Part shown: positions 40,125-60,054 of the stretch, one piece after another
Layout of the letters: every line of letters starts with the position of its first letter
How positions within the stretch are numbered: position 1 is the first letter of the stretch
Position numbers and translations under genes: made by a program
Notes under the pieces: model-generated
Seen by the model: the letters and a program-made list of their open reading frames with translations, nothing else
Databases searched by the model: none
What the model was told of the DNA's origin: nothing
Source: Ancylobacter sonchi
Lineage (GTDB): Bacteria; Pseudomonadota; Alphaproteobacteria; Rhizobiales; Xanthobacteraceae
NCBI RefSeq assembly: GCF_018390695.1
Contig: NZ_JAHBGF010000028.1
Span: 124,001 to 188,000 of the forward strand
Direction of reading: 5' to 3'
DNA: 64,000 bases

Positions 40125-40463
40125 TTATGGTTTTACTTTATCATCTTCGAACATCCGATAGCTGGTATCCTTGTGTGTGCCTTTTGGGCGGGAGCGATCC
40201 CAGCCCATCCTTTGACGGAAGCTCCCGAGGAGGCCTCGGGCAGCAAGCTCTTCTTCCGAAACGATTTCGTCGCGATCGCGCAGAGGTGATACATAGAGGG
40301 CGTCAACAGGGCAGTAGAGTTCGCACAGGAAGCAGGTCTGGCAGTCTTCCTTGCGCGCAATCACGGGAATGTCGTTCTCGACCGCCTCGAACACATGGTC
40401 AGGACAGGCCTTGACGCAAAGATTGCAGGCGATGCAGCGGGTCGGGGAGAGAAGCTCGATCAT
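40125..40463 (-). CDS. Two-cluster 4Fe-4S ferredoxin (AprB-like), last gene of operon 1
   Basis: The 112-residue protein has two complete cluster motifs, CIACNLCVKACP and CQTCFLCELYCP, predicting two [4Fe-4S] centres, and a C-terminal extension including GLLGSFRQRMGWDRSRP. It overlaps the stop of the adjacent flavoprotein gene (ATGA), so the pair is made together. The arrangement recalls AprA/AprB of adenylylsulfate reductase, in which the ferredoxin subunit wires the flavin. The same extension is found in the two other ferredoxins of this region, showing common descent. Confidence 0.88.
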   Translation of the reverse strand: MIELLSPTRCIACNLCVKACPDHVFEAVENDIPVIARKEDCQTCFLCELYCPVDALYVSPLRDRDEIVSEEELAARGLLGSFRQRMGWDRSRPKGTHKDTSYRMFEDDKVKP

Positions 40464-42052
40464 TCGGCGGCCAGGCTTTCGGGGGTTGAATGGTCGGCGG
40501 CATGAGACCACCGCGACCAGACGCGTCCGACGCCTCCGGAATGTATTCGCCGGGGCGCCTCTCCGGTCGATGCGGCGTCCTCACGACGATGGATGCCTCG
40601 GCTCTCCGGACGGGCCTGCGCACTCGCGACGATCCAGCGCGCGGTGGCGGTCATGGCGGCGGCTTCATACGATTTCTCCTGTCCCGGCAGGCGCACGTCG
40701 AACCGGCGAACCGCCTGCCACAGAGTGTCGAGCCGCTGCGCCGAGACGGCGAGGCGGTCTCCAGAACGGTAGAAGCTGCGGTCGAGCGGCAGTACTTCGC
40801 CCTGCACGGCTCGGATTATGTCGGCGAGTTCCGCCCGCGCATCGGCATGCGCGACGGTCGTCCCGGTTATCCCGGTAGCGGCGCGTGCCGGTCGGCGAAC
40901 GGCGAGGGGGCCGAGCGAACCGGCGAAGCGGGCCGCGGCGCCGCCGGCCCACACGCCGGTTGCCAGCGCCCAGGAGGCATTCGGCCCGCCGCCGCCCGAG
41001 GTGGCCCCGCTCATCGGTTCGCGTGCCGCGGCATCACCGGCGGCATAAAGACCGGGCAGGTCGGTTGCTCCATCCTGGCCGATCAGGATGCCACCCACCC
41101 CACGCACTGTACCTTCATAGAGCAGCGTCACCTCGAAGGGCTGGGTGAAGGGATCGATGCCCTGCCGGTCGAAGGGCAGAAAGATATTGGGCTGACCGTG
41201 TCGCATGCCCTCGCGGAGCCGCTCGGGGGCCTTGTCGAGCACCGCGCGCACCGAGCCACGGAGGAGATGGCGGGCGACGATCTCCTGCCGGTCGCCGGTC
41301 TCCTCGATACGATTGCCGTCGACGTCGAAGAGAGTTGCCCAGAAATAGACGATGCCCTTGGTCACCGAGGACCCCTTGGGGGCGATGCCGTACTGCCCGG
41401 TGAAGTCCATGCCTGAGAGGCGGGCGCCCAGCTCGGCGGCCATCAGATAGCCGTCGCCGGTGAGGTTATTGGTACCGAGGGCGCCGCTGAGGAATGCACA
41501 GCCACCCGACGCGATCACGACGGCGCCAGCGTGCACCGTCCAGCGTTCGCCCGAGGCGCGCCACCGACCGGAAACGCCGGCCGCCACGCCCTCGTGAGCA
41601 AGCAAGGTGTCGGCCGGAGCGTGGTCCAGGATGGTCACGCCTGCCTTCAGCAGCTTCCGGCGCATGAAATAGAGATAGTCGACACCGCGCATCGAGCCGC
41701 GGAACAGCAGGCCGGTATCTGAGGTGGGAAAGCCGTAGCCCCAGTCCGCCAGGCGGCCGAGCTGGCGGTAGGTCTCATCCAGCACACGCGTGACCACGTC
41801 TTCCTCGACGAGACCGGCGCCACGCGCGCGTCGCCGCTTCACCGCCTCGGATTGCGCCACAGAACCAGGTGCCGCGTCGATGATGGTGGTGTTGCCGGCG
41901 GCAGTGGCACCGGAGGTGCCGACATAGCCCTTCTCGACCACGATCACCCGCGCGCCTTGCTCGGCGGCGGCGAGCGCCGCCCAGCAGCCGGCTGGCCCGC
42001 CGCCCATCACGACGACGTCCGCTTCCAGTTTCGTACCCGTCTGCGCTGTCAT
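40460..42052 (-). CDS. AprA/SdhA-like flavoprotein, operon 1 (copy A)
   Basis: The 530-residue protein opens with an FAD-binding motif (VVVMGGGPAGCWAA), EKGYVGTSGA, a second FAD motif near the C-terminus (GLYAAGDAAA) and the helical ending with ESRGIHRRED, the RGxHxR signature of the succinate dehydrogenase/fumarate reductase/AprA superfamily. The histidine used for covalent FAD in SdhA is absent, so FAD is probably noncovalent as in AprA. No signal peptide, so it acts in the cytoplasm. It is coupled to the ferredoxin downstream. Substrate unknown. Confidence 0.85.
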   Translation of the reverse strand: MTAQTGTKLEADVVVMGGGPAGCWAALAAAEQGARVIVVEKGYVGTSGATAAGNTTIIDAAPGSVAQSEAVKRRRARGAGLVEEDVVTRVLDETYRQLGRLADWGYGFPTSDTGLLFRGSMRGVDYLYFMRRKLLKAGVTILDHAPADTLLAHEGVAAGVSGRWRASGERWTVHAGAVVIASGGCAFLSGALGTNNLTGDGYLMAAELGARLSGMDFTGQYGIAPKGSSVTKGIVYFWATLFDVDGNRIEETGDRQEIVARHLLRGSVRAVLDKAPERLREGMRHGQPNIFLPFDRQGIDPFTQPFEVTLLYEGTVRGVGGILIGQDGATDLPGLYAAGDAAAREPMSGATSGGGGPNASWALATGVWAGGAAARFAGSLGPLAVRRPARAATGITGTTVAHADARAELADIIRAVQGEVLPLDRSFYRSGDRLAVSAQRLDTLWQAVRRFDVRLPGQEKSYEAAAMTATARWIVASAQARPESRGIHRREDAASTGEAPRRIHSGGVGRVWSRWSHAADHSTPESLAAE

Positions 42053-42060
42053 GGTGCGTC

Positions 42061-42864
42061 TCAGCCTGCCGTCTTCCAGGAATCGAGCCGGCGGCTCAGT
42101 GCGTAGAGGCCGCGATCCATCGCGATGCCGAACAGCGCGATGAGGAACACCCCGACGAACACCACGTCGATGCGGAAGGTCGCGCCTGCATATTCGATGA
42201 GATAGCCGATGCCTTCCGAGCCGCCGAACACCTCGGCCGCCACGACACCGAGCAAGCCGCGGCCCATCGCCAGCCGGAGGCCCGTAAGCAGGAACGGCAC
42301 TGAGGCCGGCAGGGCGATGGTACGGAAGAGTTGCCATTGGCTGGCGCCATAGGCGTCGCCCACGCGCTTCAGGTCGCGGTCGATGTTCTGCATCGCCACC
42401 TGCATGTTGACGATCAGCGGAAACACCGCGCTGAGAAACACCAGCGCCACCTTCGAGCCGAGCCCGAGTCCGAACCAGATGATGAACAGCGGCATCATCG
42501 CGATGCGCGGGGTGGTGTAGAAGGCGGAAACCAGCGGGCTGAAGGCGCGGTTCGCCCAGCCATACCAGCCAATGAACACGCCGATCGGCACGCCCGCCAC
42601 GATGGCGAGGCCGAAGCCGACGAAGAAGGTGTATCCGCTGGAGAGCAGATGCCGGGCAAGAGAGCCGTCGCGGGCGATGTCGATCCCCGCTACCAGAATG
42701 CGCGAGGGCGAGGAGGAGAACATCGGGTTGACCGTGCCCGAGCGTACGGCCAGCTCCCACGCCAGTAGCAGTCCGAGGATGACCGCAGCGCCGGTGCCAT
42801 AGTCGAGAAACCAGCGCCACACACGTCGTCCAGGCGGCAGGCGGATGGCAGGCGTGGCGCTCAT
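42061..42864 (-). CDS. SsuC/TauC-type ABC transporter permease, operon 1
   Basis: The 267-residue protein has six transmembrane helices and the binding-protein-dependent transport loop around DLKRVGDAYGASQWQLFRTIALP. It belongs to the nitrate/sulfonate/taurine permease family. Its start overlaps the ATPase stop (ATGA). It is the only permease gene in operon 1 and probably acts as a homodimer. Confidence 0.88.
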   Translation of the reverse strand: MSATPAIRLPPGRRVWRWFLDYGTGAAVILGLLLAWELAVRSGTVNPMFSSSPSRILVAGIDIARDGSLARHLLSSGYTFFVGFGLAIVAGVPIGVFIGWYGWANRAFSPLVSAFYTTPRIAMMPLFIIWFGLGLGSKVALVFLSAVFPLIVNMQVAMQNIDRDLKRVGDAYGASQWQLFRTIALPASVPFLLTGLRLAMGRGLLGVVAAEVFGGSEGIGYLIEYAGATFRIDVVFVGVFLIALFGIAMDRGLYALSRRLDSWKTAG

Positions 42865-43802
42865 AGCCGGCCCCTCCCGCGGGCAGTTTCCTGGATGAGT
42901 TCCCAGATCCGCGTCTCCAGGCGGGTGAAGGCGGGAAGTGCCTTCACATTGGCCGGGCGCGGCCGGGGCAGCTCGACGACGATCTCGGCGAGGATGCGGG
43001 CCGGCCTGTCGGAGAAGACGAGGATGCGGTCGGACAGCAGAATGGCCTCGTCGATCTGGTGGGTGACCATCAGCACCGTCTTGCGCGTTGTCTCCCAGAT
43101 GCCGAGCAACTCCTTCTGCATGGTCTCGCGGGTGATGGCGTCCAGCGCGCCGAAGGGCTCGTCGAGCAGCAGGATGTCGGGATCGCAGACCAGTGCGCGG
43201 GCGAGGTTGACGCGCTGCTGCATGCCGCCCGACAGCGCCGCCGGGTAGAAATGCTCCACGCCGCCGAGCTGCACGAGATCGATATAGGCCGCCGCCCGCC
43301 GATGTGCTTCGCGCTTCGGTATGCCCTGCAGCTCCAGCCCGTAGATCACGTTGCCGAGCACGGTACGCCAGGGCAGCAGCGAGGGGCGCTGGAACACCAC
43401 CGCGCGGTCCGGCCCAGGTCGGGTGATCGGCACGCCACCTGCCACCAGCGTGCCGCCGCTGATCGCGGTGAGGCCGGCGACTGCGTTGAGGAAGCTCGAC
43501 TTGCCGCAGCCACTGAGGCCGACGATGGAGACGAACTCGCCTTTGGCGACCGTCAGGTCGATCTGCGAGACCGCCGGCGTCACCTCGCCGGTGCTGGAGT
43601 TGGTATAGGCGATGGAGACGCCGGTGGCAGCGAGCGCCCCATTGCTGCGCGACGCGCCGGCCGGTGCCGGCTCGCCGCCCTGCCGCTGGAACGGCAAGGC
43701 GTGCGACGTACCGGCGACGGGCGGCCGATACAACCCGCTCGCTCCGGCCGTAGCCGCGGCGGGAACCGCGAAGTCGAGGCGGGCTTTCAGCGATCGGAAC
43801 AT
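42861..43802 (-). CDS. SsuB/TauB-type ABC transporter ATPase, operon 1
   Basis: The 313-residue ATPase shows Walker A GLSGCGKSS, Q-loop VFQRPSLLPW, signature LSGGMQQRV, Walker B ILLLDEPFGALD and an H-loop THQIDEA. About 60 extra residues precede the core, without a domain I recognise. It drives the permease encoded next. Family members take up sulfonates, taurine, nitrate or related anions. Confidence 0.88.
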   Translation of the reverse strand: MFRSLKARLDFAVPAAATAGASGLYRPPVAGTSHALPFQRQGGEPAPAGASRSNGALAATGVSIAYTNSSTGEVTPAVSQIDLTVAKGEFVSIVGLSGCGKSSFLNAVAGLTAISGGTLVAGGVPITRPGPDRAVVFQRPSLLPWRTVLGNVIYGLELQGIPKREAHRRAAAYIDLVQLGGVEHFYPAALSGGMQQRVNLARALVCDPDILLLDEPFGALDAITRETMQKELLGIWETTRKTVLMVTHQIDEAILLSDRILVFSDRPARILAEIVVELPRPRPANVKALPAFTRLETRIWELIQETARGRGRL

Positions 43803-43823
43803 GAAGGAACTCCTGTCTCGCGC

Positions 43824-45353
43824 TCAGGCCACCCGCGCGCGATCCTGTCCATGCGTCCAGCGCGGCAGGCCTGCCGCCTGCGTGCCGGCGATGCGGCCGC
43901 TGATCACGATCTCGCTGAGATTTCCGCCCAGCAGATAGAGGTGGGCGAAGAAGGAGCCGAGCTCGCCGGCGGCGAACAGGCGCGGGATCGGCTCGCCATA
44001 GGGGTCGACCACACGCTGATGCTCGTCATGTTCGGGGCCGCCCTGGGTATTGGTGAGCAGCGGCCAGACCGGCACGACGTAGAAGGGCGGCGTCCCGATG
44101 GGGAACAGCGTGCCGGCCGGTCGTCTATGGTCGTCGTCGGAGCCGGAGCGGACGATCTCGTCCCAGCGCGCCAGCGTCGCCTTGAGCACGGCAGGCTCCC
44201 AGCCTTGCGCGGCAGCGAGCTCCTCCACCGTGTCGTAGCGTTTGATCCAGCCGCGCGCGACCTCGGCGGAATTGTCCTCGCTCCACACATAGCGATGCTC
44301 GGGATGCGAGGTGAGCGGATTGGCGATCCGCCCCAGCTTGCGCCCTTCCTCATCGAAGACGAGATAGGCGGGAATGCGGGTATAGCCGGGCACATCGGCA
44401 TCGTAGAGGCCGAGCGGGCGGGCGGCGGTGTCCTGCGTCGCGGGGTGCAACTCGTTCATGAACCGCTTGCCGAACGTGTCGAGGATGATCCACGAAATGG
44501 GGCGGTTCGGATTGCGGGCCCCTCCGGGTGCGATGCGGAAGGCGGTGTCGTAGTCGTCGAATTTGAAGCCGTAGGAACCGTGGAAATGCCACATGTGCCA
44601 GAGGGCGGCGCCGACCTTCTGCGCCATGAGAATGCCGTCGCCGGTATTGCCGGGATTGCCCATGGCATAGACCGGCAGCGCCTCGAAATACTCCCGCTTC
44701 AGCTTCTCGTTGAACTCGAAGCCCCCGGAGGCCAGCACCACCGCGCGATTGGCGCGCACCGCCACCTTGCGGCCCTCGATTTCCGCCCATACGCCGATTA
44801 CCTCGCCGTCGGCGGTGATCAGCGAGCGCACCGGCGCGCCAGTGTGGACCGGGATGTTGCGCGCGAGCACATTGTCGAGCAGCACCTTGAAGAAGCGCTG
44901 CCCGGCGAGGTTCTTGCCGGTATAGGTCCAGTCATAGCCGGCGAAGCCGGAAATATCGGTGACGGTGAGCGAATAGAGCGTGTCGGCGCCCGGGAAGGGA
45001 TAGATGCCCTCATGCGTGTCGGCGCGCTCGCCGATCTCGGCGCCGTTGACCTGCGCGAGGCCGCGCAGATAGTCCGGCAGCTCGACAAGCCCCTGGGCGA
45101 AGGCGTCGATCAGGCGGTCTGACACCCGGCCGCCCTGTGTCTCGGTCAGATAGGAGACGGCCTTGCCGTGATCGCGCGCCGCCTTGATGCCGCCGCCGGC
45201 GAGGATGGTGATGCCGCCGACATGCGGCATCTTCTCCAGAACCAGCACCGAGCTGCCGGCGTCATGCGCGTTGATGGCCGAAACCAGGCCGGCCCCGCCG
45301 GCGCCGACGACGACCACGTCGGCATCGAGCGCCCATTCGATGTTGCGGGTCAT
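43824..45353 (-). CDS. Flavocytochrome c/ketosteroid-dehydrogenase-like FAD oxidoreductase, operon 1 (copy B)
   Basis: The 509-residue flavoprotein has the FAD-binding start VVVVGAGGAGLVSAINA, LEKMPHVGGITILAGGGI and the C-terminal GELGSFFAHLYLLGGNLSEIVISGRIAG. This is the fumarate reductase flavoprotein/KstD branch, distinct from copies A and C. It has no signal peptide or haem motif and no ferredoxin of its own. It lies 2 bp after the binding-protein gene and 21 bp before the ATPase gene, inside the same transcription unit, so a linked redox step on the imported compound is likely. Confidence 0.82.
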   Translation of the reverse strand: MTRNIEWALDADVVVVGAGGAGLVSAINAHDAGSSVLVLEKMPHVGGITILAGGGIKAARDHGKAVSYLTETQGGRVSDRLIDAFAQGLVELPDYLRGLAQVNGAEIGERADTHEGIYPFPGADTLYSLTVTDISGFAGYDWTYTGKNLAGQRFFKVLLDNVLARNIPVHTGAPVRSLITADGEVIGVWAEIEGRKVAVRANRAVVLASGGFEFNEKLKREYFEALPVYAMGNPGNTGDGILMAQKVGAALWHMWHFHGSYGFKFDDYDTAFRIAPGGARNPNRPISWIILDTFGKRFMNELHPATQDTAARPLGLYDADVPGYTRIPAYLVFDEEGRKLGRIANPLTSHPEHRYVWSEDNSAEVARGWIKRYDTVEELAAAQGWEPAVLKATLARWDEIVRSGSDDDHRRPAGTLFPIGTPPFYVVPVWPLLTNTQGGPEHDEHQRVVDPYGEPIPRLFAAGELGSFFAHLYLLGGNLSEIVISGRIAGTQAAGLPRWTHGQDRARVA

Positions 45354-45355
45354 GC

Positions 45356-46390
45356 TCAGCTCGCCGGACGGGTGAAGCGGGGATCGACGATCTTGTCTAT
45401 GTCGGGTGTGTAGTCCTTGGAGATGTCACCGACCTGCTGGACGATCTTGATGGCGTTCAAGAGCCCTTCGGTATCGACGGCCTGTGTTTCGTCCCAGCCG
45501 GGGATCTGCTCGTCATAGATCTTGTTGAGCAGCTTTTCGTCGAGATTGAGCAGTTTCTTCGAATAGGAAACCAGCTCGGCGCGGTTGTCCTTGGCGTATT
45601 GGATCGCCTCCCGGCTCGCTTCGAAGAATTTGCGGATCGTCTCCGGGCTCGCGGCGATGAATTTGTCGGATGCGAAGACGTAGCTGTGCTGGTAGCGGCC
45701 GTAGTAATCCGCCGCCTTGGCGAGGATGTGCCCATCGCCATCGTTCACCAGCTTGGTGATGTTGGGCTCCTGCAGCACCGCCGCAGCAATCTGGCCAGAC
45801 TTGAAGGCGACGTAGCCATTGCCGCCGCTGCCATAGGCGATTTCCTGCACATCGGCGGCTTCGAGCTTCTTAGCCGTGAGGATGAAGCGCAGCGCCTGCG
45901 ACTGGCCGCCACCCACCGAGGAGACGCCGATCTGCTTGCCCTTCAGGTCCTCGACGCTCTTGACCTCGTTCTGGCCGACCAGGACGAATTCCTGTCCCTT
46001 CACCGCCGGAGAACCGACTACCTTGATCGGGATGCCGCGGCTGATGCCGACGAGGATCGGCGTGCCGAGTGTGCCGATATCGAGCTGGCCGCTGGCAGCG
46101 GCGGCGATCACCTCCGGCCCGCCTTTCTGGAACACGATCGGCTGCAGGTCGATGCCGTGCTTCTTGTAGATGCCCTTCTCGGCGCCGAGGAAGAAATAGA
46201 CCGTCGAGGCCGAGGGGCTGAGGATGCCGAAGCGTACGGGAACCGTCGTGGCTTCCTGCGCGTGACCGGTGGCCGCCGACAGGCTCGCGCCTAGGGCGGC
46301 TGCCAGCAGGACGATGGCGGCCGATGTCAGCGCGTGGCGCCGCAGCCGCGAGCGGAGGGAGGCACCGGAAAGGCCAGGGAAGGGGGACAT
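45356..46390 (-). CDS. SsuA/TauA-like periplasmic binding protein, operon 1
   Basis: The 344-residue precursor has a Sec signal peptide (cleavage near GHAQE) and an NMT1/SsuA-type fold with GQLDIGTLGTPILVGISRGIPIKVV. It delivers the substrate to the operon 1 transporter. The start at 46390 gives a typical signal peptide; the ribosome site is weak. The ligand cannot be read from sequence, but the family favours sulfonates, nitrate or aromatic acids. Confidence 0.87.
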   Translation of the reverse strand: MSPFPGLSGASLRSRLRRHALTSAAIVLLAAALGASLSAATGHAQEATTVPVRFGILSPSASTVYFFLGAEKGIYKKHGIDLQPIVFQKGGPEVIAAAASGQLDIGTLGTPILVGISRGIPIKVVGSPAVKGQEFVLVGQNEVKSVEDLKGKQIGVSSVGGGQSQALRFILTAKKLEAADVQEIAYGSGGNGYVAFKSGQIAAAVLQEPNITKLVNDGDGHILAKAADYYGRYQHSYVFASDKFIAASPETIRKFFEASREAIQYAKDNRAELVSYSKKLLNLDEKLLNKIYDEQIPGWDETQAVDTEGLLNAIKIVQQVGDISKDYTPDIDKIVDPRFTRPAS

Positions 46391-46424
46391 GGAGGTGATC
46401 TCGCTGTGTTTCCGGCGATCCGGG

Positions 46425-46811
46425 TCAGATGTATTTGCGGAGCGACAGGTCGTGCAGCTTGGTGCGGACCTTGTCGTCGGGGTCGGGCTTGCGCTGGAAG
46501 CGCAGCAGGACGCCGGGGTCGTCGTCACTGCCGCCCGGCCGGGCGCGGTTCCAGCCCAGCGCGCGCTGGTAGCTGCCGAGAAGGCCCGAACGGACGATCT
46601 CGTCCTTGTCGACGGGATCGGGGACGCCACGGGGCGACACATAAAGCGCGTCGACCGGGCAATGCAGTTCGCAGGACATGCAGGTATGGCAATCTTCCTG
46701 CCTGGCGATCGCTGGAATACCGCTCTCCGTCGCCTCGAACACATTGGTCGGGCAGATGGCGATGCAGCGATCGCACTTGATGCAGAGTTCGTCGACGACG
46801 AGTTCGATCAT
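46425..46811 (-). CDS. Two-cluster 4Fe-4S ferredoxin (AprB-like), operon 1 (copy C)
   Basis: The 128-residue ferredoxin carries CIKCDRCIAICP and CHTCMSCELHCP and the shared C-terminal extension GLLGSYQRALGWNRARPGG, followed by a unique basic tail ending LSLRKYI. It overlaps the stop of flavoprotein C (ATGA). It should pass electrons to or from that flavoprotein. Confidence 0.88.
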   Translation of the reverse strand: MIELVVDELCIKCDRCIAICPTNVFEATESGIPAIARQEDCHTCMSCELHCPVDALYVSPRGVPDPVDKDEIVRSGLLGSYQRALGWNRARPGGSDDDPGVLLRFQRKPDPDDKVRTKLHDLSLRKYI

Positions 46812-48424
46812 GATGCCAGCGCCCGCTGTTCGGTATGAAGGGACGGTGACGCCGGTTGCCGTTCGACCCAGATGCGGTCGAGGCCCCCGGAGATGAGGTG
46901 ATGGGTCTGCGAGGGGTCGAGATCGGGGAAGTCGCTGCGCCGGTGCAGGCCACGGGTTTCGGTGCGCTCCAGCGCACTCAGATTGATCCAGCGCGCTGTC
47001 GCCAGCATCGCCGCCGTTTCTCGGGCGCGCAGGAGGTCCCGCGGCGTTGGCCCACCATCTCCGGCCGACGGGGGCGCAAGGCCGTCGCGCACGGCGTTCC
47101 ACTCGCTCCCGAACCGCTTCAGCGAGGCTTCGAGATAAGGGCCGAACCGCCAGTAATTGCGGTCGAAAGGCAACATCTCCGCCTGGATGCCGGCGAGCAA
47201 CTCCTGCGGAATCAGCGCCGGATCGGCCGTGTGGCGGGGCCGCAGGCCGGCCTCGCCAAGCGGTTCTGTCCGTCGCCCGGCGACATTGCCGATCCGGCGC
47301 GCGAAGGTGACCGCGGATCGTCCTGCCCATGAGCCGGAGGCGAAGGCCCAGGCGGCGGCAGGGCCGCCACCGGGAGGGCCTGCACCCGTGACCTTCTCGC
47401 GGGTGGCGAGGTCGCCGGCAACGAAGAGGCCGGGCACGTCGCTCGACAGGTCGTCGTCGATGAGAACGCCGCCGGCGGCGCGAATGGTACCCTCGCTGCG
47501 GAAGTCGATGCGGAACTTCTGGGTGAACGGATCGATGCCGAGTCGTTCCAGATGCAGGATGATGTGTGCGTGCGTCTTGCGCACCATCGCCCGCGTGTCT
47601 TCGTCCTTCGCCTTGTCGAGAATGGCCCAGGCGGCGCCGGTCTGGAGGATCGCGTCGACCGTCTGGCGCCCGCGGGTGATCGGCTTGCCGTTGTTGTCGT
47701 AGAGCGAGCCGTAATCGAGATGGGCGCCCCGGCTCAGCACGCCGTCGAAGGCGGTCGGCGCATACTGGCTGGAGAATTCCATGCCGGAGAAACGTACCCC
47801 GGCTTCGGCCGCCATGAGATAGCCGTCACCGGTATTGCCCTTCACGCCCGCGACGTCGGAGAGGAACGAGGTGCCGCCGGTCGCCAGCACCACCGCGCCG
47901 GCATCGACGCGCCACGCCTCGCCCGACTGACGGTTGATGCCCTGCGCGCCGGCCACCGTGCCATTGCTGGCCAGCAACTCGAGCGCCGGGCTGTGATCGA
48001 GGATGCGTACCTGCAGCTTTTGCAGCCGCCGGCGCAGGAAGATCAACACGTCCGGCCCGCGCAGGCGGCCGCGATATTCCTTGCCTTCCTCGTTGCGTGG
48101 CCATTTGTAGCCCCAGCGGGCCATGGCCTCGAGATTGGCGTAGCTCTGGTCGAAGGTACGCTCGATCCAAAGCTTGTCCGCGAGATCGAAGGCGAGAGGC
48201 AGGCGCGCTTCGACGGTGCCCTCGCGGTGAACGGGATCGTCCGGCTTGATGTAGTAGATGCCGGTATTGGCGCTGCTGAAAGGCCCGGAGGTACCGACAT
48301 AGCCCTTCTCGGCGATCACCACCCGCGCGCCGGCTTCGGCGGCGCTGATCGCCGCCCACATGCCGGCCGGCCCTCCACCGATGACCAGCACGTCTGCGTC
48401 GAGGCGAATCTGCGAAGTTGCCAT
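46808..48424 (-). CDS. AprA/SdhA-like flavoprotein, first gene of operon 1 (copy C)
   Basis: The 538-residue protein has LVIGGGPAGMWAAISAAEAGA, AEKGYVGTSGPFSSANTG, GLFVAGDLATREKV and the ending ETRGLHRRSDFP (RGxHxR). It is a paralogue of copies A and D but differs in the segment after GTSG, where A and D have GAT and this one has GPF; this lies near the flavin and may reflect a different substrate. It forms a coupled pair with its ferredoxin and heads the eight-gene operon. Confidence 0.85.
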   Translation of the reverse strand: MATSQIRLDADVLVIGGGPAGMWAAISAAEAGARVVIAEKGYVGTSGPFSSANTGIYYIKPDDPVHREGTVEARLPLAFDLADKLWIERTFDQSYANLEAMARWGYKWPRNEEGKEYRGRLRGPDVLIFLRRRLQKLQVRILDHSPALELLASNGTVAGAQGINRQSGEAWRVDAGAVVLATGGTSFLSDVAGVKGNTGDGYLMAAEAGVRFSGMEFSSQYAPTAFDGVLSRGAHLDYGSLYDNNGKPITRGRQTVDAILQTGAAWAILDKAKDEDTRAMVRKTHAHIILHLERLGIDPFTQKFRIDFRSEGTIRAAGGVLIDDDLSSDVPGLFVAGDLATREKVTGAGPPGGGPAAAWAFASGSWAGRSAVTFARRIGNVAGRRTEPLGEAGLRPRHTADPALIPQELLAGIQAEMLPFDRNYWRFGPYLEASLKRFGSEWNAVRDGLAPPSAGDGGPTPRDLLRARETAAMLATARWINLSALERTETRGLHRRSDFPDLDPSQTHHLISGGLDRIWVERQPASPSLHTEQRALAS

Positions 48425-48696: not shown

Positions 48697-49107
48697 CTAG
48701 CTCTCGATAAGGAAGGCGGTATCCACCGGCACCTGCAGCGCGGTAACGAGGGCGTTGGTCTGCGCCGCCATGCCGATGATCGCGGTCAGATGGTGATGCT
48801 GCGCGTCGGTCATGCCCTTCGCCCGCGCGGCGGCGGTGTGCGAGTGAATGCAATAGGAGCAGCCATTGGCGGTCGAGACGGCGATGTAGATCAGCTCGCG
48901 GGTCAGAGGATCGAGGGGGCCATCTGCCAGCATCACCGCCTTGAGGCTGTCCCATGTCCGCGCCAGCGCCGCCGGATCGTTGGCGAGCGCCCGCCAGAAA
49001 TTGTTGATGAAGTCGGACCTGCGCGTCGCGCGGATATCGTCAAACACCGCCTTCACGGCGGGATGCCCTTCCACCTCGGCGTCGCTCCATAGCCGAACCG
49101 TCGTCAT
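48697..49107 (-). CDS. AhpD/carboxymuconolactone decarboxylase-family protein
   Basis: The 136-residue protein has the AhpD core with the redox pair CSYC followed by IHSH, in the order expected for thiol-disulfide activity with a proton-relay His. Family members act as alkylhydroperoxidases or as gamma-carboxymuconolactone decarboxylases; the CxxCxxxH form favours peroxidase or thiol-redox function. It has its own frame upstream of operon 1 on the same strand and could protect against oxidative by-products, but this is inference. Confidence 0.8.
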   Translation of the reverse strand: MTTVRLWSDAEVEGHPAVKAVFDDIRATRRSDFINNFWRALANDPAALARTWDSLKAVMLADGPLDPLTRELIYIAVSTANGCSYCIHSHTAAARAKGMTDAQHHHLTAIIGMAAQTNALVTALQVPVDTAFLIES

Positions 49108-49247
49108 GCCTTCGCCTCCTCTTTCCTCGCGCCGCGCGCTTCCCGCCTGGCGCCTTCCCTTGTACCGCCGCGATCCGCGGGCTGCCGGCCCGACATGGTT
49201 GCGGCGTGCGTGTCTCACCATGCCGAGCCTATGAACGGAACCTACCC

Positions 49248-50492
49248 ATGCCTGACCCAGGGCGGACAACGCCGGCCACATCCAGCCGGCCCTTCATTCT
49301 CTACGCCGCCGGACAGGCCGTCTCCTCCACCGGCAGCTGGATGCAGCGCATGGCGATCGGCTGGCTGGCCTGGGAACTGACCCAGTCGGTCGCCTGGATC
49401 GGTGCCATCGCGCTCACCGAGCTGGTGGCGGCGCTATGGGTGGCGCCGCTTGCCGGCGTCATTACCGACCGCAGCAACCCCTACCGGCTGAATCTCCTTT
49501 TCCAGTGCTGCGGCATGGTGGTGACGCTGACGTTGTTCGCCGTCACCGTGACCGGGGCGATGACCATCGAGCTACTCTGGCTGCTGGCGCTGGCGGATGC
49601 CAGCTGGCAGGGGCTGAGCCAGCCGGCCCGAGCCGTCGCCATCGGGTTCCTAGCCGACCGTCGACACATGGCGCGGGCCGTGGCGGCCAATTCCATCGCC
49701 TTCAACATTGCGCGTGCTGCTGGTCCGGCGCTCGGGGGCTTCGTCATCGTCCATGCCGGAACGGCGGTAGTGTTCCTCGTCGACGGCGCCAGCTTCGCGG
49801 TGCTGATCCTCGTTCTCGCTCGCCTGCGCGCCGCTCTCGACCGCCCCGGCGCCGCCAGTGGTCGCAGTGTGCTGCAGGATTTCGTCGGCGGTTATCGCTA
49901 TATCGCCCGCACCCCGGCGGTCGCCACGGTCTTCCTGCTTGCCATGGCGTTCTCGGTGCTCGGCCGGCCCTTCACCGAGCTGTTCCCTGCCATCGCCGGC
50001 GACATGCTGGGCGGTGGGCCGGGCGTGCTTTCGACGCTGATGAGCCTGCAGGGCGTCGGCGCCCTCGTCGGTGGCAGCTGGATGCTGCGTCGGCGCTCCA
50101 CCGACCGACTGGTAACCGTGACCTATCTCGCCGGCATCGGCATGGCCGGCGCGCTCGTCGCCTTCTGCCTCGTCGGGGATCGGACGGCGGCATTCGTCCT
50201 GGTCGCCCTGGCCGGCCTCTGCCATGTGATGTGCAATATCGGCATGCAGTCGCTGGCGCAGCTGTTCTCCGACTCCATGTTCCGTGGCCGTACCATGGCG
50301 CTCTACGGCTTGATTTTCCGTACCGGTCCAGCCGCCAGCGCCGCGCTCATTGGCATCGCCGCCGGCTGGCTCGGCCTGCCGCTGCTGATCGGCATCGCCG
50401 CGGCGCTGTGCGCGGCCAGCCTCGTGGCTATCGGTCTCGTCCGGCGCCATGCCTTCGCCGACGGACCGGCCGAGGCCGGGCAGAAGGCATGA
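49248..50492 (+). CDS. MFS transporter (DHA3/EntS-type exporter)
   Basis: The 414-residue protein has about twelve transmembrane helices and the MFS loop motif GVITDRSNPYRLN between helices 2 and 3. The N-terminal half resembles the DHA3 group (EntS, macrolide exporters). I start at 49248; ATG 49206 in the same frame would add a non-membrane, Arg-rich prefix. It lies between the two flavoprotein operons on the opposite strand, and could export a product of that pathway. Confidence 0.82.
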   Translation: MPDPGRTTPATSSRPFILYAAGQAVSSTGSWMQRMAIGWLAWELTQSVAWIGAIALTELVAALWVAPLAGVITDRSNPYRLNLLFQCCGMVVTLTLFAVTVTGAMTIELLWLLALADASWQGLSQPARAVAIGFLADRRHMARAVAANSIAFNIARAAGPALGGFVIVHAGTAVVFLVDGASFAVLILVLARLRAALDRPGAASGRSVLQDFVGGYRYIARTPAVATVFLLAMAFSVLGRPFTELFPAIAGDMLGGGPGVLSTLMSLQGVGALVGGSWMLRRRSTDRLVTVTYLAGIGMAGALVAFCLVGDRTAAFVLVALAGLCHVMCNIGMQSLAQLFSDSMFRGRTMALYGLIFRTGPAASAALIGIAAGWLGLPLLIGIAAALCAASLVAIGLVRRHAFADGPAEAGQKA

Positions 50493-50529
50493 CGGGGGTG
50501 AAGGGCCGCGTCTGGCGAGGGCGGCCGGC

Positions 50530-51339
50530 TCAGGCGGCGTGCCGGTGGAGGTGAAGCAGATCGAGGATGTCCTGCTTCACTTCCACGAAGGCGCGCTCCG
50601 TCCGTTGGCGTGGCCGTGCACCGGCAATGTCGAAGATCTGCCGCACCCGCCCGGGGCGCGGGTCCATGACCACCACGCGGTTGGAGAGGAACACCGCTTC
50701 CTCGACATCGTGCGTCACCATCACCATGGCGATGCCTTCGTGCTCCCACAGGCGCAGCAATTCCTCCTGGAGATAGCCGCGCGTGAGCGAATCGAGAGCG
50801 CCGAGCGGCTCGTCGAGCAGCAGCAGGCGCGGGCGCGGCGCCAGCGCCCGGGCGATGGCGGCGCGCTGCGACATGCCGCCGGAAAGCTGGTGCGGCAAGG
50901 CTTTCTCGAAGCCGGAGAGGCCGACGAGGCGGATCAGTTCGGCGACGCGGGTGCGCTTTTCCTCCGCGGCGCCGGCCACGCTGTTGAGGCTGAGCAGCAC
51001 ATTGGCCTCCACGCTCAACCAGGGCAGCAGGCGATGATCCTGGAAGACGATGCCGCGGGTAAGGCTGGGCTTCGTCACCTTCTGGCCATCCACCGCCACG
51101 GTGCCGCTGTCGGGCACGTCGAGCCCGGCGATGAGGCGCAGAAGGGTCGACTTGCCGCAGCCGCTTGGTCCGACGAGGCTGATGAACTCGCCCGGCCGCA
51201 CGGCAAGCGAGACATCCGCCAGCGCCTGCACCGTGCCGCCATCGACGGCGAAGGTCTTCGACACGTTGCGGATGTCGATGTCGCTGCGATGCGAGGCAGC
51301 GACCGGAGCGGCATGCGGGGCGTCTAGTGTCTGGACCAT
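50530..51339 (-). CDS. SsuB/TauB-type ABC transporter ATPase, operon 2
   Basis: The 269-residue ATPase shows Walker A GPSGCGKST, Q-loop VFQDHRLLPW, signature LSGGMSQRA, Walker B LLLLDEPLGALD and H-loop THDVEEA. It powers the two permeases encoded upstream and overlaps the second by 16 bp. It is the last gene of operon 2, converging with the MFS gene. Confidence 0.9.
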   Translation of the reverse strand: MVQTLDAPHAAPVAASHRSDIDIRNVSKTFAVDGGTVQALADVSLAVRPGEFISLVGPSGCGKSTLLRLIAGLDVPDSGTVAVDGQKVTKPSLTRGIVFQDHRLLPWLSVEANVLLSLNSVAGAAEEKRTRVAELIRLVGLSGFEKALPHQLSGGMSQRAAIARALAPRPRLLLLDEPLGALDSLTRGYLQEELLRLWEHEGIAMVMVTHDVEEAVFLSNRVVVMDPRPGRVRQIFDIAGARPRQRTERAFVEVKQDILDLLHLHRHAA

Positions 51340-52160
51340 GGCAGGGCCCTCCGTGAAAGCAGCACAACGGCGCGGTCGAGCGCCAGCCCGACCACTGCCA
51401 GCGAGACGACGCCGACGATCACCCGGTCCATCCGGGCAAATTCGCGGGCGGCGGCGAGATAGGCGCCGAGCCCGTCGCCCATGCCGTTGATGTAGCCGGT
51501 GCCGATCAGGTACTCGGCGCCGAAGGTGCCGAGCCAGGCGATGTTGAGCGACAGTTCCAGGCCGGCGAGCAATGCCGGGGTGGCTGCCGGCAGCACGATA
51601 CGGCGCAGCGTGGTGAGCCGGTCGAGCTCCAGCACGCGGCCGATCTCGCGATAGGGAACGGGCACGTTGCGGCAGCCGGCTTCCGCCGCCAGCGCCATGG
51701 GGAAGAAGGCGCCGAGTGCGATCAGCGTGATCTTCATCAATTCGCCGTTGCCGAACCAGGCGCTGAGCAGCGGAATCCAGGCGAAGAGCGCAATCTGCCG
51801 GGCGCTGTTGATCGTCGGGTCGCCGATGCGCCGGGCGATGCCGGAGAGGCCGAGCAACGTGCCGACGAGGAACCCGGCGGAAATGCCGATGGCCGAACCG
51901 ATCAGTGCCCGCAGCAGTGTCGCGGCCAGGGCGAAGGGCACCGCGCCCGAGGCAAAATCCTCGATGGCGGTGTGCAGCACGATCTGCGGCGGGCTGAACA
52001 GCTCGGGGTTGACGAGACCGGCGGCGCTGACCGCCGCCCATATCGCGATCAACGCGATCGGCAGCAAGGCCCCGCGCCAGAGGCGGCCGAGACGGGTGAG
52101 GGCCGGACGCACAGGAGAAGACGTTTGGGCGGGGGACGACGTGGGGGCGGCGGTGCTCAT
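51324..52160 (-). CDS. SsuC/TauC-type ABC transporter permease 2, operon 2
   Basis: The 278-residue permease has six helices and the coupling loop around YREIGRVLELDRLTTLRRIVLP. Together with the preceding permease it would form a heterodimeric channel, unlike the single permease of operon 1. Only 4 bp separate the two genes. Confidence 0.88.
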   Translation of the reverse strand: MSTAAPTSSPAQTSSPVRPALTRLGRLWRGALLPIALIAIWAAVSAAGLVNPELFSPPQIVLHTAIEDFASGAVPFALAATLLRALIGSAIGISAGFLVGTLLGLSGIARRIGDPTINSARQIALFAWIPLLSAWFGNGELMKITLIALGAFFPMALAAEAGCRNVPVPYREIGRVLELDRLTTLRRIVLPAATPALLAGLELSLNIAWLGTFGAEYLIGTGYINGMGDGLGAYLAAAREFARMDRVIVGVVSLAVVGLALDRAVVLLSRRALPWSRH

Positions 52161-52164
52161 CGCC

Positions 52165-53040
52165 TCACCGTGCGCTATGGAACGACCAGCGAGTGGTCCG
52201 GTTCTGCAGCTTCAGCAGCCCATGGTCGAGCGCCCAGCCCACGAGGCCGATGACGATCATCGTGGCGAAGACCACGTCGAGCTGGAACGACTTACGCCCC
52301 CACATCATGAGGTAGCCAATGCCGGCCGCCGAGGCGAGCATTTCGACGAGGATGAGCGCTTTCCATCCTTTGGATAGCGAGAGGCGGAAGCCGGTGGCGA
52401 TGGCCGGCAGCACCGCCGGCAGCACGATATGGCGTAGCCGGGCGCGACGATCGAGCTCCAGTGCCCGTGCGACGTCGTCATATTTTGCCGGCATCGAGCG
52501 GATGGCTTCGAACACCCCGACCATCAGCGGCAGGAAGGCGGTCTTGGCGATCAGGACGATCTTCAGCGTCTCTCCGATGCCCAGCATCAGCATGAAGAAG
52601 GGCAGCCAGCCAAGCGAGGGTACCAGGAAGAAGGCGCGTACGGTCGGGGCGGCATAGGTTTCCAGTGTCCGCGACAGGCCGAACGCGACACCGACGACCA
52701 GTCCGGCAAGGCCGCCAAGCAGTACGCCGGTCATCACCCGCGCGAGACTGACCGCGAGTTCGTGTGCGAGCTGGCCGGACGCGGCGAGCTCCAGACCGGT
52801 CTGCCAGACAAGGCTTGGCGCCGGCAGGATCTGCGGCGCCAGCCATTCCTGGTGGACCGCTACCGACCAGATAAGCACCAGCACCGCCGGCAACGACAAG
52901 CCGAGCAGGACGGTGACGGCGAAGCTGCCGCCGCGCCGCCAGGCACGCGAGACGGCGCGCGGGGCATCCCAGCTGGTGATGTCGGGCGCCAGGTCACCCG
53001 GCACCAAACCCTGGGAACGCTGGATTCCGATATCGGACAT
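52165..53040 (-). CDS. SsuC/TauC-type ABC transporter permease 1, operon 2
   Basis: The 291-residue permease has six transmembrane helices after a hydrophilic N-terminus and the coupling loop KYDDVARALELDRRARLRHIVLP. The start at 53040 is supported by GGAGAG eight bases upstream, against the alternative ATG at 53055. It follows the ferredoxin gene by 30 bp. Confidence 0.88.
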   Translation of the reverse strand: MSDIGIQRSQGLVPGDLAPDITSWDAPRAVSRAWRRGGSFAVTVLLGLSLPAVLVLIWSVAVHQEWLAPQILPAPSLVWQTGLELAASGQLAHELAVSLARVMTGVLLGGLAGLVVGVAFGLSRTLETYAAPTVRAFFLVPSLGWLPFFMLMLGIGETLKIVLIAKTAFLPLMVGVFEAIRSMPAKYDDVARALELDRRARLRHIVLPAVLPAIATGFRLSLSKGWKALILVEMLASAAGIGYLMMWGRKSFQLDVVFATMIVIGLVGWALDHGLLKLQNRTTRWSFHSAR

Positions 53041-53070
53041 GGCTGCTCTCCTCACGGTGGCGGGGTGAAA

Positions 53071-53397
53071 TCAAAGAAAGGCGCGCAATTCGAAGGTGGG
53101 GTCGTTCTCGGCGCCGGCCGCCTTGCCCCGCTTCCAGCCGAGGGCGCGGGCATAGCTGCCAAACAGCCCGCGCGCGGTGATTTCCGCTTCGGCGATGCCG
53201 GTCGGCGCTTCGGCATTCGGATGGACGAACAGTGCGTCGGCGGGACAGTAGATCTCGCAGAGAAAGCACGTCTGGCAGTCCTGTTGCCGGGCGATCACCG
53301 GCACCTTGCCCGGCCCACCGTCGAACACATTGGCCGGGCAGGCCTTCACGCAGATGTCGCAGGCGATGCAGCGCGCCGCGGATACGACCTCGATCAT
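53071..53397 (-). CDS. Two-cluster 4Fe-4S ferredoxin (AprB-like), operon 2 (copy D)
   Basis: The 108-residue ferredoxin has CIACDICVKACP and CQTCFLCEIYCP and the shared extension GLFGSYARALGWKRGKAAG. It overlaps the flavoprotein D stop (ATGA). Its first motif is closest to copy A, as is its flavoprotein partner. Confidence 0.88.
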   Translation of the reverse strand: MIEVVSAARCIACDICVKACPANVFDGGPGKVPVIARQQDCQTCFLCEIYCPADALFVHPNAEAPTGIAEAEITARGLFGSYARALGWKRGKAAGAENDPTFELRAFL

Positions 53398-55019
53398 GAC
53401 CGCGCCACCTGCAGCGGCGCGGCATGGATCGCGCGATCGAGAGCCACGCCGATTTCGTCGAGGCCGAAGGTGCGGACGCGATGGGCGAAGTTCGGATCGG
53501 ACTCCGGAGCGTCGCTGCGTCGGTGAAGGCCACGGCTTTCATTGCGAAACACGGCGCCGGCGAGCGCCCAGCGCGAGGAGGCGAGCAGTGCACCGGCTTC
53601 GCGGGTGCGAATGGCGGCGGCGCCTTCGCCCGCAAGGTAGGCCCGGGCGTCGCGCCAAAGCCCGTCCAGCCGGCTCAGGCTGCATCGTAGCTTCGGGCCG
53701 GTGCGGAAAAAGTTGCGGTCGATGGAAAGCATCTCCTCGCGCACGGCCGCGACGACATCGATACTCGCTTCCGCTTCGGGACGGGCACTGTGAGCGACCA
53801 GCCCGATGCCGCCGAGCCGACGAAGCTTTCCCGCCACGTCTCGCCTCGAACTCAACGCTGTGCGGGCCGCCGCCGCACCCGCCCAGCGGCCGGAGGCGAT
53901 GGCCCAGGACGCGTTGGGACCGCCGCCGCCGGAGACCGCGCCGGCGATATCCTCACGGCTTGCGGCATCGCCGGCGGCGTAGAGGCCGGGAATGCCGGTC
54001 CAGCCGCCCTCGTCGACAAGGCGGATCCCGCCAACGCCGCGCACCGTGCCTTCACCGCGCAACGTGATCTCGAAGCGCTGCGTGAACGGATTGAGGCCGA
54101 TGCGGTCAAACGGCAGGAAACAGTTCGGCTGGCCGCGCCGCAGCCAGTCCTGAATCTCCGGCCCTGCCTTGTCGAGGCTGGCAAAGACGGGGCCGCGCAG
54201 CAGCCCTTTCGCCACCGCGACGTGCCGGTCGCCGGCGCTCATGTCGAGCGGTTCGCCATCGACATCGAAGAAGCTCGCCCAGCGATAGGGAAGGCCCTTG
54301 TTGAGCGAGGTGCCGGCGGGCGCGACGCCATACTGGCCGCAGAATTCCATGCCGGAGAGGCTGGCACCCGCCTCGGCGGCCATGAGATAGCCGTCGCCCG
54401 TCAGACCGGTGGCGCCGAGCATACGTTCGCCGAAGGCGCAGCCCCCGGTCGCCAGCACCACCGCGCCGGCCGTCACCTGCCAGGGACGGTGCTGCTGCCG
54501 ATCCCAACCCGCAGCGCCGACGATGGCGTCATCCGCGCCGAGTAGCTCCAGCGCCGGATGATGGTCCAGCACGGTGACGCCTCGCTTCAGGGCGAGGCGG
54601 CGCATGTGGCGCATGTAGTCGGGGCCGCGCAGATTGGCGATGTAGAGTTCGCCATCGGACTGGCGCGGAAAGGGATAGCCGTCGTTCCCAAGCGTGCGCA
54701 GCGCCTCATGGGCGGTATCGAGCATGCGCAGCATGACATGCGGATCGGCGAGCCCGAACGCGCGGGCGGCGCGCCGCTCCACCTGGGCGGCGCGGGCCTC
54801 GCCCGGTGGCACGCACCACGTGCCGGTGTTCGATGGTGCCGTGGCGCCGCTGGTGCCGAAATAGCCCTTGTCGGCCAATACCACTCGACGGCCATTCTCG
54901 GCCGCCGTCACCGCCGCCCATGCGCCCGCGGGGCCACCACCGAGGACGAGGACATCGGCTTCTAGGTTGAGCGGCGCGGTCCGGTCAGCCGACTTCCGGC
55001 GAAGTGAGGTCTGCGGCAT
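53394..55019 (-). CDS. AprA/SdhA-like flavoprotein, operon 2 (copy D)
   Basis: The 541-residue protein has LVLGGGPAGAWAAVTAAENG, ADKGYFGTSGATAPSNTG, GLYAAGDAASREDI and the ending ESRGLHRRSDAP. Like copies A and C it lacks a covalent-FAD histidine and a signal peptide. It is coupled to its ferredoxin and lies 76 bp after the binding-protein gene. It is most like copy A through the N-terminal half. Confidence 0.85.
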   Translation of the reverse strand: MPQTSLRRKSADRTAPLNLEADVLVLGGGPAGAWAAVTAAENGRRVVLADKGYFGTSGATAPSNTGTWCVPPGEARAAQVERRAARAFGLADPHVMLRMLDTAHEALRTLGNDGYPFPRQSDGELYIANLRGPDYMRHMRRLALKRGVTVLDHHPALELLGADDAIVGAAGWDRQQHRPWQVTAGAVVLATGGCAFGERMLGATGLTGDGYLMAAEAGASLSGMEFCGQYGVAPAGTSLNKGLPYRWASFFDVDGEPLDMSAGDRHVAVAKGLLRGPVFASLDKAGPEIQDWLRRGQPNCFLPFDRIGLNPFTQRFEITLRGEGTVRGVGGIRLVDEGGWTGIPGLYAAGDAASREDIAGAVSGGGGPNASWAIASGRWAGAAAARTALSSRRDVAGKLRRLGGIGLVAHSARPEAEASIDVVAAVREEMLSIDRNFFRTGPKLRCSLSRLDGLWRDARAYLAGEGAAAIRTREAGALLASSRWALAGAVFRNESRGLHRRSDAPESDPNFAHRVRTFGLDEIGVALDRAIHAAPLQVARS

Positions 55020-55095
55020 GTGGCGACTGTTCCAGTAGCGGGGAAGGCGCGTCCGGCCCTTGAGCCGAACGCGCCTTGCTTCTCTGTTTCGGCGA

Positions 55096-56172
55096 TCAGC
55101 TCTGCGGCTCGCCCTTGGCGTTGCGCGCCGTCCAGGCCTTCTCAACGCCGAGTTCCTTGATGGCGGCGTTCAGATAGGTCGGGTCGATCCACTGGTTGAC
55201 GTCGAACGACGTCTTGATGAGCTTGTTCTCCAGGGCGAAGGTCACGCCGTTGGTGATGTTGGTCTTGTAGAAGTCGTCCAGCAGCGGGCTCAGCCGGTCG
55301 GCGAGCTTGTCGCCCGCGAAGTCGTTGGCGAGTGCCTCGCGCGGCACGCCGGTCAGCGCCCAGATGTCGAGCACGGCGTCGCGGTTCTTCTCGTCGGAAG
55401 CGAAGGCGGCGGCTTCGACGAAGGCCTTCACCACTCGCTTGGTGGTTTCGGGATATTTGCTGGCGAAGGCCTCGGTGACGATGAAGGAGCCGAACAGGCT
55501 GCCGGGCGCCGGGCTGCCCTTGGTGGAGTACACGGTCTTCACCGTGCCCTTCTCGACCAGCGGCAGCAGATTGTTGCCGCCGAGCACGGCATCGACGTCG
55601 CCGGTGGTGACTGCGGCGACCTGATCAGCCGACTGCAGGTCGAAGATGGTGACGTCCTTTTCTGTCAGGCCGCCTTGCGCGAGGACGCGATTGAGCGCCA
55701 GCTCGTTGATGGTGCCGCGCGAGACGGCGATCTTCTTACCCTTCAGATCGGCGATCTTCTCGACGCCGCGGTCGGGACGGGCGACGAGATAGGAGGGGTT
55801 GGTGCCGTAGGACGCCAGCACCTTGGTCTTCAGTCCGGCGCCACGGCCGACGATGTTCGGCAGGCCGCCATAATTGGCGAAATCGGCCTGTCCGTTCGCC
55901 AGCGCCTCGTTGATGGCGGGACCGGTGCCGCGCGGAAACTGCCACTCGATCTTCACGCCGTCCTTGGCGAATTCCTTTTCGAGATATTCCTTGGCGCGCA
56001 CCACGCCGATGACCGCCGAGCCATAGGGCTTGCCCGCCGCATTCCCCTGGCCGGCGAGGCGAATGACATCGGGCGGCGTTTCCGCGCGTGCCGGTATGGC
56101 AACGAAGGCGGCGAGCGCAGCGGCGGCGATCAGAAGGCGGCGGCCGAATGTCCGGGAGATGGGGTGCGACAT
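55096..56172 (-). CDS. SsuA-like periplasmic binding protein, first gene of operon 2
   Basis: The 358-residue precursor has a signal peptide (cleavage after IPARA) and the NMT1/SsuA-like fold: LANGQADFANYGGLPNIVGRGAGLKTKVLAS, then GKKIAVSRGTINELALNRVL. It feeds the operon 2 transporter. It is only distantly similar to the operon 1 binding protein, which suggests different ligands. The start at 56172 avoids an in-frame non-signal prefix. Confidence 0.87.
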   Translation of the reverse strand: MSHPISRTFGRRLLIAAAALAAFVAIPARAETPPDVIRLAGQGNAAGKPYGSAVIGVVRAKEYLEKEFAKDGVKIEWQFPRGTGPAINEALANGQADFANYGGLPNIVGRGAGLKTKVLASYGTNPSYLVARPDRGVEKIADLKGKKIAVSRGTINELALNRVLAQGGLTEKDVTIFDLQSADQVAAVTTGDVDAVLGGNNLLPLVEKGTVKTVYSTKGSPAPGSLFGSFIVTEAFASKYPETTKRVVKAFVEAAAFASDEKNRDAVLDIWALTGVPREALANDFAGDKLADRLSPLLDDFYKTNITNGVTFALENKLIKTSFDVNQWIDPTYLNAAIKELGVEKAWTARNAKGEPQS

Positions 56173-59925: not shown

Positions 59926-60054
59926 CGTAGTGGTGAGTACGCCGGCTCCCGTGTGGCGCCCTGCGACCGCGTCCATGACAAGTCGAGCCCCAACATGCCG
60001 CGGGATGCCCATAGACCAAGACGGTATGTTGCCCCACGCTATCCCCGAGATCAG

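Follow-up and report, generated by a model that had tools for sequence, protein, structure and literature searches.

What does a flavoprotein do which is encoded, together with a ferredoxin of two iron-sulfur clusters, beside the genes of a sulfonate-type importer? The question is raised by a 64,000-nucleotide stretch of DNA from Ancylobacter sonchi (assembly GCF_018390695.1, contig NZ_JAHBGF010000028.1, forward-strand positions 124,001-188,000), called the window here. Three such pairs of a flavoprotein (Fp) and a ferredoxin (Fd) are present in it. Taken as a whole, the analysis leans towards Fp/Fd being an alpha-beta oxidoreductase with FAD and two [4Fe-4S] clusters, of a distinct clade, which works in organosulfur acquisition by means of a reductive cleavage. 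The role in organosulfur acquisition is very probable, and the reaction, a reductive cleavage to sulfite, is offered as a tentative proposal; Fp and Fd presumably form an alpha-beta complex.

Gene order and conservation of the Fp/Fd pair

The genes are arranged in two operons, A and B, with one small gene between them. Substrate-binding proteins are abbreviated SBP and open reading frames ORF, and the positions are those of the window.

55096..56172, minus strand: SBP2, SsuA-like substrate-binding protein, operon A (Pfam NMT1; NCBIfam SsuA_fam 147.3 bits, cut-off 163.5)
53394..55019, minus strand: Fp3, FAD flavoprotein, proposed alpha subunit, operon A (FAD_binding_2 and Succ_DH_flav_C; predicted model)
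53071..53397, minus strand: Fd3, two-cluster [4Fe-4S] ferredoxin, proposed beta subunit, operon A (8 Cys; ATGA overlap with Fp3)
52165..53055, minus strand: ABC permease, operon A (ORF; aligned as permease seed)
51324..52160, minus strand: ABC permease, operon A (BPD_transp_1)
50530..51339, minus strand: ABC ATPase, operon A (ORF, start taken from the translation; ATPase seed)
48697..49107, minus strand: AhpD/CMD-like small protein between the operons, only putatively linked to them (Pfam CMD 1.7e-20)
46808..48424, minus strand: Fp2, FAD flavoprotein, operon B (ORF, Pfam domains, identity to Fp1)
46425..46811, minus strand: Fd2, two-cluster ferredoxin, operon B (8 Cys, Pfam, identity to Fd1)
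45356..46390, minus strand: SBP1, NMT1/SsuA-like binding protein, operon B (Pfam, NCBIfam)
43824..45353, minus strand: FAD protein like flavocytochrome c and ketosteroid dehydrogenase, operon B (NCBIfam flavo_cyto_c 186.4 bits, cut-off 285.45)
42861..43802, minus strand: ABC ATPase, operon B (ORF; ATPase seed)
42061..42864, minus strand: ABC permease, operon B (BPD_transp_1)
40460..42052, minus strand: Fp1, FAD flavoprotein, operon B (ORF, Pfam domains)
40125..40463, minus strand: Fd1, two-cluster ferredoxin, operon B (8 Cys, Pfam)

The order is SBP2-Fp3-Fd3-permease-permease-ATPase in operon A and Fp2-Fd2-SBP1-flavocytochrome-c-like FAD protein-ATPase-permease-Fp1-Fd1 in operon B. The latter holds two of the three Fp/Fd pairs, which thus have an importer in common. 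An ATGA overlap joins the Fp stop and the Fd start in all three. The initial annotation, made from the letters of the DNA, had proposed three ATGA-coupled pairs at these coordinates, each in an operon with an SsuABC-type importer; the ORFs and translations agree with it on both points, with the operons numbering two and one of them common to two pairs.

Genome contigs were scanned with an 11-row alignment, and the counts given below describe the best 79 of 225 confirmed loci. They belong to six phyla, namely Pseudomonadota, Actinomycetota, Cyanobacteriota and Bacillota along with one Myxococcota and one Armatimonadota record; locus L035, from Rhodococcus, stands under Cyanobacteriota in this tally. 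Fd lies downstream of Fp in 77 of the 79 loci, the two exceptions being L030, which ends 121 bases past the match, and L049, where an Fd-like ORF stands immediately before the Fp instead. The Fp ORF ends in ATGA or GTGA in 62 of the 78 loci with an intact Fp; of the 41 loci for which a script placed a start, 29 proved to have an ATG at exactly this overlap.

The importer is also conserved. SBP, permease and ATPase occurred together in 10 of 11 loci of other matching Pseudomonadota genomes (at least one of them is also among the 79, Caballeronia G249 being L087) and in 46 of the 79 loci, against 2 of 20 control regions of 20 kb, which were picked arbitrarily from nine such genomes at round coordinates and are not random draws. 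On pSymB of Sinorhizobium meliloti Ak57 the genes for a thioredoxin-family protein, Fp, Fd, ATPase, permease and an aliphatic-sulfonate binding protein stand together. The spread is patchy, as a match at 1e-60 was found in 12 of 398 sampled Pseudomonadota genomes, that of the window included.

Of the 79 loci, 11 have a second full-length Fp, as has one plasmid locus of Paenibacillus. The partners belong to different subclades of the Fp family in Paenibacillaceae, Actinomycetota and Bradyrhizobium, and operon B of the window shows the same two-Fp arrangement (Fp2 and Fp1). Such modules suggest successive steps or complementary specificities. Unsupervised clustering of the neighbours produced many clusters of antisense ORFs, with no firm result outside the profiled families.

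A separate clade of flavoproteins with changed active-site residues

FAD_binding_2 and Succ_DH_flav_C domains were found over the Pfam gathering scores in Fp1, Fp2 and Fp3, and by domains and fold these proteins belong to the complex-II-type flavoprotein superfamily. The model predicted for Fp3 (pLDDT 91.4) has the complex-II flavoprotein fold; its fold search matched FrdA, NadB, the alpha subunit of phosphoadenylylsulfate (PAPS) reductase (PAPSR) and AprA, with 488-506 residues aligned to FrdA, capping and C-terminal parts included. Identity to Fp1 is 44% for Fp2 and 51% for Fp3; identity to Fd1 is 52% for Fd2 and 50% for Fd3. The eight cysteines of each window Fd make up two CxxCxxCxxxCP motifs, and its tail reads GLxGS(Y/F)...GW, which matches the motifs and the shared extension described in the initial annotation. 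Eight matches were obtained in the 5.8-Mb genome, where the three window Fps are the only close copies and the other five have E values of 9e-6 or weaker. A recent tandem triplication was ruled out because the three window Fps group with different relatives.

In total 89 Fps were aligned, among them those of 78 of the 79 loci; L079, a Caballeronia megalochromosomata record in which the Fp gene is not a single intact ORF, was left out of the alignment as well as the tree, and so were the rows L134 and L174. The tree was built on 32 of these Fps, the three of the window and 29 of the 86 others. All 32 rows form one clade with support of 100/100, apart from the rows of AprA, of PAPS-reductase-like proteins, of SdhA/FrdA/NadB and of PRK08275 in the same tree. 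The initial annotation had called for such a phylogeny and suspected a redox enzyme outside the characterised kinds; for the groups compared this holds, and the importer accompanies the pair across phyla. Neither of the two outcomes that it had named as contrary, Fps inside a characterised clade or an importer link confined to this genome, was obtained with these groups.

The histidine for covalent FAD attachment, which the initial annotation had reported as missing, is replaced by Gly in 89 of 89 Fps. Of the RGxHxR end which it had described as retained, the Arg is kept in 88 of 89 and the His in only 68 of 89. At the dicarboxylate-binding positions His is changed to Tyr (86/89), Glu to Lys or Arg (89/89) and the second His to Glu or Asp (89/89); the Arg399-type position has become Thr or Ser (87/89), and the Arg286-type position remains Arg in 59 of 89. 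Four residues (N, W, R and H), which by a numbering offset would be N74, W234, R265 and H398 of A. fulgidus, are common to AprA (11 of 11 rows) and to PAPSR-like rows (at least 8 of 9). There the Fps show a gap (89/89), Leu (77/89), a gap (89/89) and Thr (75/89) in one MAFFT alignment.

None of the 25 best NCBIfam matches of each of the six Fp/Fd proteins was over its cut-off (26-76 families matched per protein). Against AprA (TIGR02061, cut-off 641.75) the best score in the own genome was 34.1 bits, on another contig, with Fp1 at 22.3 and Fp2 and Fp3 unlisted; the whole-genome search, which took in AprA and DsrA and not sat or qmo, found neither of the two above its cut-off. Fp1, Fp2 and Fp3 respectively scored 63.3, 51.6 and 45.4 bits for PRK06854 (NF005331, cut-off 557), 100.6, 95.1 and 66.3 for NadB (TIGR00551, cut-off 452.75) and 74.6, 77.8 and 66.7 for PRK08275 (NF006131, cut-off 587).

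Several known identities were ruled out for the Fps. They are not adenylylsulfate (APS) reductase, which the initial annotation had already held unlikely, being hundreds of bits below the aprA cut-off, in a separate clade and with gaps or other residues at the N, W, R and H positions. Nor are they PAPS reductase of the PRK06854 kind (below the cut-off, separate clade, shared residues missing), fumarate reductase or succinate dehydrogenase (no covalent-FAD His, dicarboxylate residues changed), L-aspartate oxidase (below the cut-off, separate clade, dicarboxylate residues changed) or PRK08275 (below the cut-off, separate clade).

Sulfur context and the possible reactions

SBP1 and SBP2 contain no Cys and no Met after the start, and proteins of sulfur acquisition tend to be free of both according to extracts of PMC7661421. 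SsuA (TIGR01728, cut-off 163.5) is the best NCBIfam match for each of them, at 125.0 bits for SBP1 and 147.3 for SBP2; as these scores lie below the cut-off, they are termed SsuA-like only. The best solved relative of SBP2 is SsuA 3uif (E 1.9e-40). Eleven SBPs in ten loci of the same phylum average 0.58% Cys+Met, where 167 control genes, identified through codon bias, have 3.29% (one-sided p 2.9e-8). The 79 loci hold 56 SBPs on the same strand, and in 45 of these Cys+Met does not exceed 1% of the last 270 residues, a count that stands without control SBPs from those phyla. The flavocytochrome-c-like FAD protein of operon B (43824-45353) has just 0.98%.

Sulfur-scavenging genes recur in the neighbourhood. 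Luciferase-like monooxygenases (LLM) were found in 30, SfnB in 15, TauD in 14 and MetI in 5 of the 79 loci, and in 0, 1, 0 and 0 of the 20 control regions. Six LLM neighbours were checked: three are over the NtaA/DmoA cut-off, two resemble SsuD with scores under its cut-off, and the last is without a match at 1e-60. Plasmid homologues stand near SsuD and methionine-importer genes in Nostoc, near CysDN in Paracoccus and near SfnB and methionine-importer genes in Rhizobium etli. The initial annotation had spoken of a catabolic system; this is less likely than sulfur acquisition, because the SBPs are free of Cys and Met and the neighbours are sulfur-scavenging genes. A complete importer lies on the same strand within 6 kb in 35 loci; in 19 of them no LLM, SfnB or TauD was found by profiles, and Fp/Fd is therefore the candidate sulfur-releasing enzyme there.

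In the proposed mechanism the SsuABC-type importer would bring in a sulfonate-type anion during sulfate starvation, and Fp/Fd would perform the redox step which frees its sulfur. Electrons would enter via the ferredoxin clusters and reduce the FAD, and the reduced FAD would cleave the bond to the sulfo group reductively, giving sulfite for assimilation. The paralogues may differ in substrate or, where an importer is common to two pairs, carry out consecutive steps. The reductive model is put forward because the plan of an FAD alpha and a two-[4Fe-4S] beta subunit is shared with PAPSR and APS reductase, where nucleophilic attack by FAD N5 is proposed (PMC10322725, in part), and because the desulfonation by the unrelated IsrBHDK is also proposed to be reductive.

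Several observations weigh against this proposal. No member with an assigned substrate or activity was found, and the specificity of the importer is suggested by homology, with scores under the SsuA cut-off. There is no same-strand SBP or permease within 6 kb in 27 of the 79 loci, and 14 of the 79 are without importer SBP, permease or sulfur gene by profiles, some of these being clipped by contig ends. The SfnB and TauD labels come from small seed profiles; two of each were checked, giving one family match below cut-off and one with nothing at 1e-60. The Fps are at most weakly depleted, with 2.81% Cys+Met against 3.29% in controls (one-sided p 0.057) where SBPs have 0.58% and LLMs 0.76%; Fp1, Fp2 and Fp3 have 1.89, 1.30 and 2.59%, and the 86 relatives 2.84%. 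This counts against a simple picture of a starvation protein for the enzyme. The four residues shared by AprA and PAPSR are missing from the Fps, so the sulfur-adduct chemistry is not transferable residue by residue. AprB and PAPSR-like beta subunits have a Trp next to their second cluster, with CWxC in the 21 beta subunits printed for 22 AprA/PRK06854 loci (L134 gave none); among 11 aligned Fds, 10 have Gln in its place and one has His.

The alternative that survives best, though we hold it rather unlikely, is that Fp/Fd oxidises the imported organosulfur compound at an alcohol, an amine or the alpha carbon and passes electrons to the ferredoxin, with desulfonation taking place elsewhere or spontaneously. 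Within the superfamily, SdhA and NadB catalyse oxidations. ORFs resembling D-2-hydroxyacid dehydrogenase accompany Fp on its strand in only 6 of the 79 loci, and one stands directly upstream of Fp in Nostoc edaphicum; the 19 of 35 full-importer loci show no second desulfurising enzyme of a known type, although unprofiled enzymes would escape. It is improbable that Fp/Fd is a flavin or electron donor to neighbouring FMN-dependent monooxygenases instead of acting on the substrate. LLM genes in 30 loci would fit such a partner, but minimal operons are without them (the same 19 of 35 loci by profiles; Fp-Fd-ATPase-permease-SBP in S. meliloti Ak57), and the Fp3 model aligns with FrdA through its capping and C-terminal parts. 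Equally improbable is a sulfur-free substrate such as nitrate, a pyrimidine or an aromatic acid with the sulfur neighbours being incidental: NMT1-type importers carry many solutes, and SBP1 has weak matches throughout, to proteins for sulfonate, taurine and thiamine precursors and to nitrate-named ones, but the SBPs are depleted in several phyla and the sulfur neighbourhood recurs. Hardly credible is an APS/PAPS-reductase-type enzyme acting on sulfite or adenylylsulfate, which shares the alpha/beta gene plan and in whose AprA a Tyr and a Lys agree with the Tyr and the Lys/Arg that the Fps have at two of the former dicarboxylate positions, given scores far under the aprA and PRK06854 cut-offs, a separate clade and the absence of the four shared residues.

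The own genome seems rich in organosulfur-scavenging loci. Its 19 NMT1-type SBP matches span 0 to 4.83% Cys+Met, and the other loci with such an SBP at 0.4% or less carry LLM or SfnB in 4 of 4 cases, against 3 of the 10 remaining loci. The nearly Cys/Met-free NMT1-type SBPs beside LLM/SfnB genes include those at L209-L212. Directly beside the two operons Pfam showed an AAA_25 ATPase ORF (35360-37408, plus strand) and a phage terminase small-subunit ORF (39011-39823, plus strand), possibly an island or prophage remnant. An ABC ATPase ORF (58487-59242, plus strand) and an NMT1 binding-protein ORF (59254-60186, plus strand), each with a match to only part of its Pfam model, lie beside an Rrf2-family regulator (58812-58207, minus strand), perhaps as a decayed further importer locus.

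Significance and comparison with known systems

Aerobic assimilation of sulfonate sulfur is usually credited to oxygen-dependent enzymes such as SsuD and TauD. More speculatively than for the cleavage itself, Fp/Fd may be a widespread oxygen-independent reductive desulfonase with FAD and two [4Fe-4S] clusters which stands beside SsuD/TauD and serves sulfonates or sulfate esters, with substrate-tuned paralogues and two-enzyme multi-step modules. If the proposal is true, a flavin/iron-sulfur route in Pseudomonadota, Actinomycetota, Cyanobacteriota and Bacillota would be an added enzymatic route in the sulfur cycle, and a function would be given to many genes named only "FAD-binding protein" and "ferredoxin family protein". 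It would also provide candidates for gaps such as the aerobic isethionate enzyme of Rhodobacter capsulatus, noted as unidentified in extracts of PMC11423573. There rcc02232, a "FAD-dependent oxidoreductase" and possible member of the Fp family, is induced about 4000-fold on isethionate and its mutant still grows.

The fold and the subunit plan are known; apparently new are the own clade, the changed active site and the genomic role, which was not found described. In the open-access literature no paper on the Fp/Fd gene pair was found, most subscription journals being outside the search, so that earlier work may exist; the portions of PMC8557817, PMC10708946 and PMC7661421 consulted name no recognisable member.

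Among known flavoproteins, AprAB and PAPSR likewise have adjacent genes for an FAD alpha and a two-[4Fe-4S] beta subunit. The Fps fall short of the aprA cut-off by hundreds of bits and differ from dissimilatory AprAB at the N, W, R and H positions; from the PAPS reductase of Methanothermococcus thermolithotrophicus (8a8o), whose relatives were taken as the PRK06854 rows, Fp/Fd differs in its clade and in missing the beta Trp and the shared residues. FrdA, SdhA and NadB have the dicarboxylate-binding His, Glu, His and Arg which are changed in the Fps, where the covalent-FAD His is also absent.

PRK08275 is similar in being an AprA-like flavoprotein beside a two-cluster ferredoxin and importer genes; SBP, permease and ATPase genes were nearby in 4 of 4 loci examined out of 7 matches. 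It differs in belonging to another clade, nearer to AprA/PAPSR-like rows (98/93), and in its short ferredoxin of 75-80 residues with CWxC. In some genomes its loci (L166-L169) lie inside a reading frame of at least 900 codons. As a separate clade has the same gene set, the combination of an AprA-like enzyme, a ferredoxin and an NMT1-type importer arose or persisted at least twice.

The isethionate reductase IsrBHDK with SsuCAB resembles Fp/Fd in joining an importer to a proposed assimilatory reductive C-S cleavage of a sulfonate, with release of sulfite, whereas its proteins are nitrogenase-like, unrelated and anaerobic (PMC11423573, in part). The SsuD and TauD systems also combine an importer with a desulfonating enzyme under sulfate starvation; they are an oxygen-dependent monooxygenase and dioxygenase, where Fp/Fd is an FAD and iron-sulfur protein.

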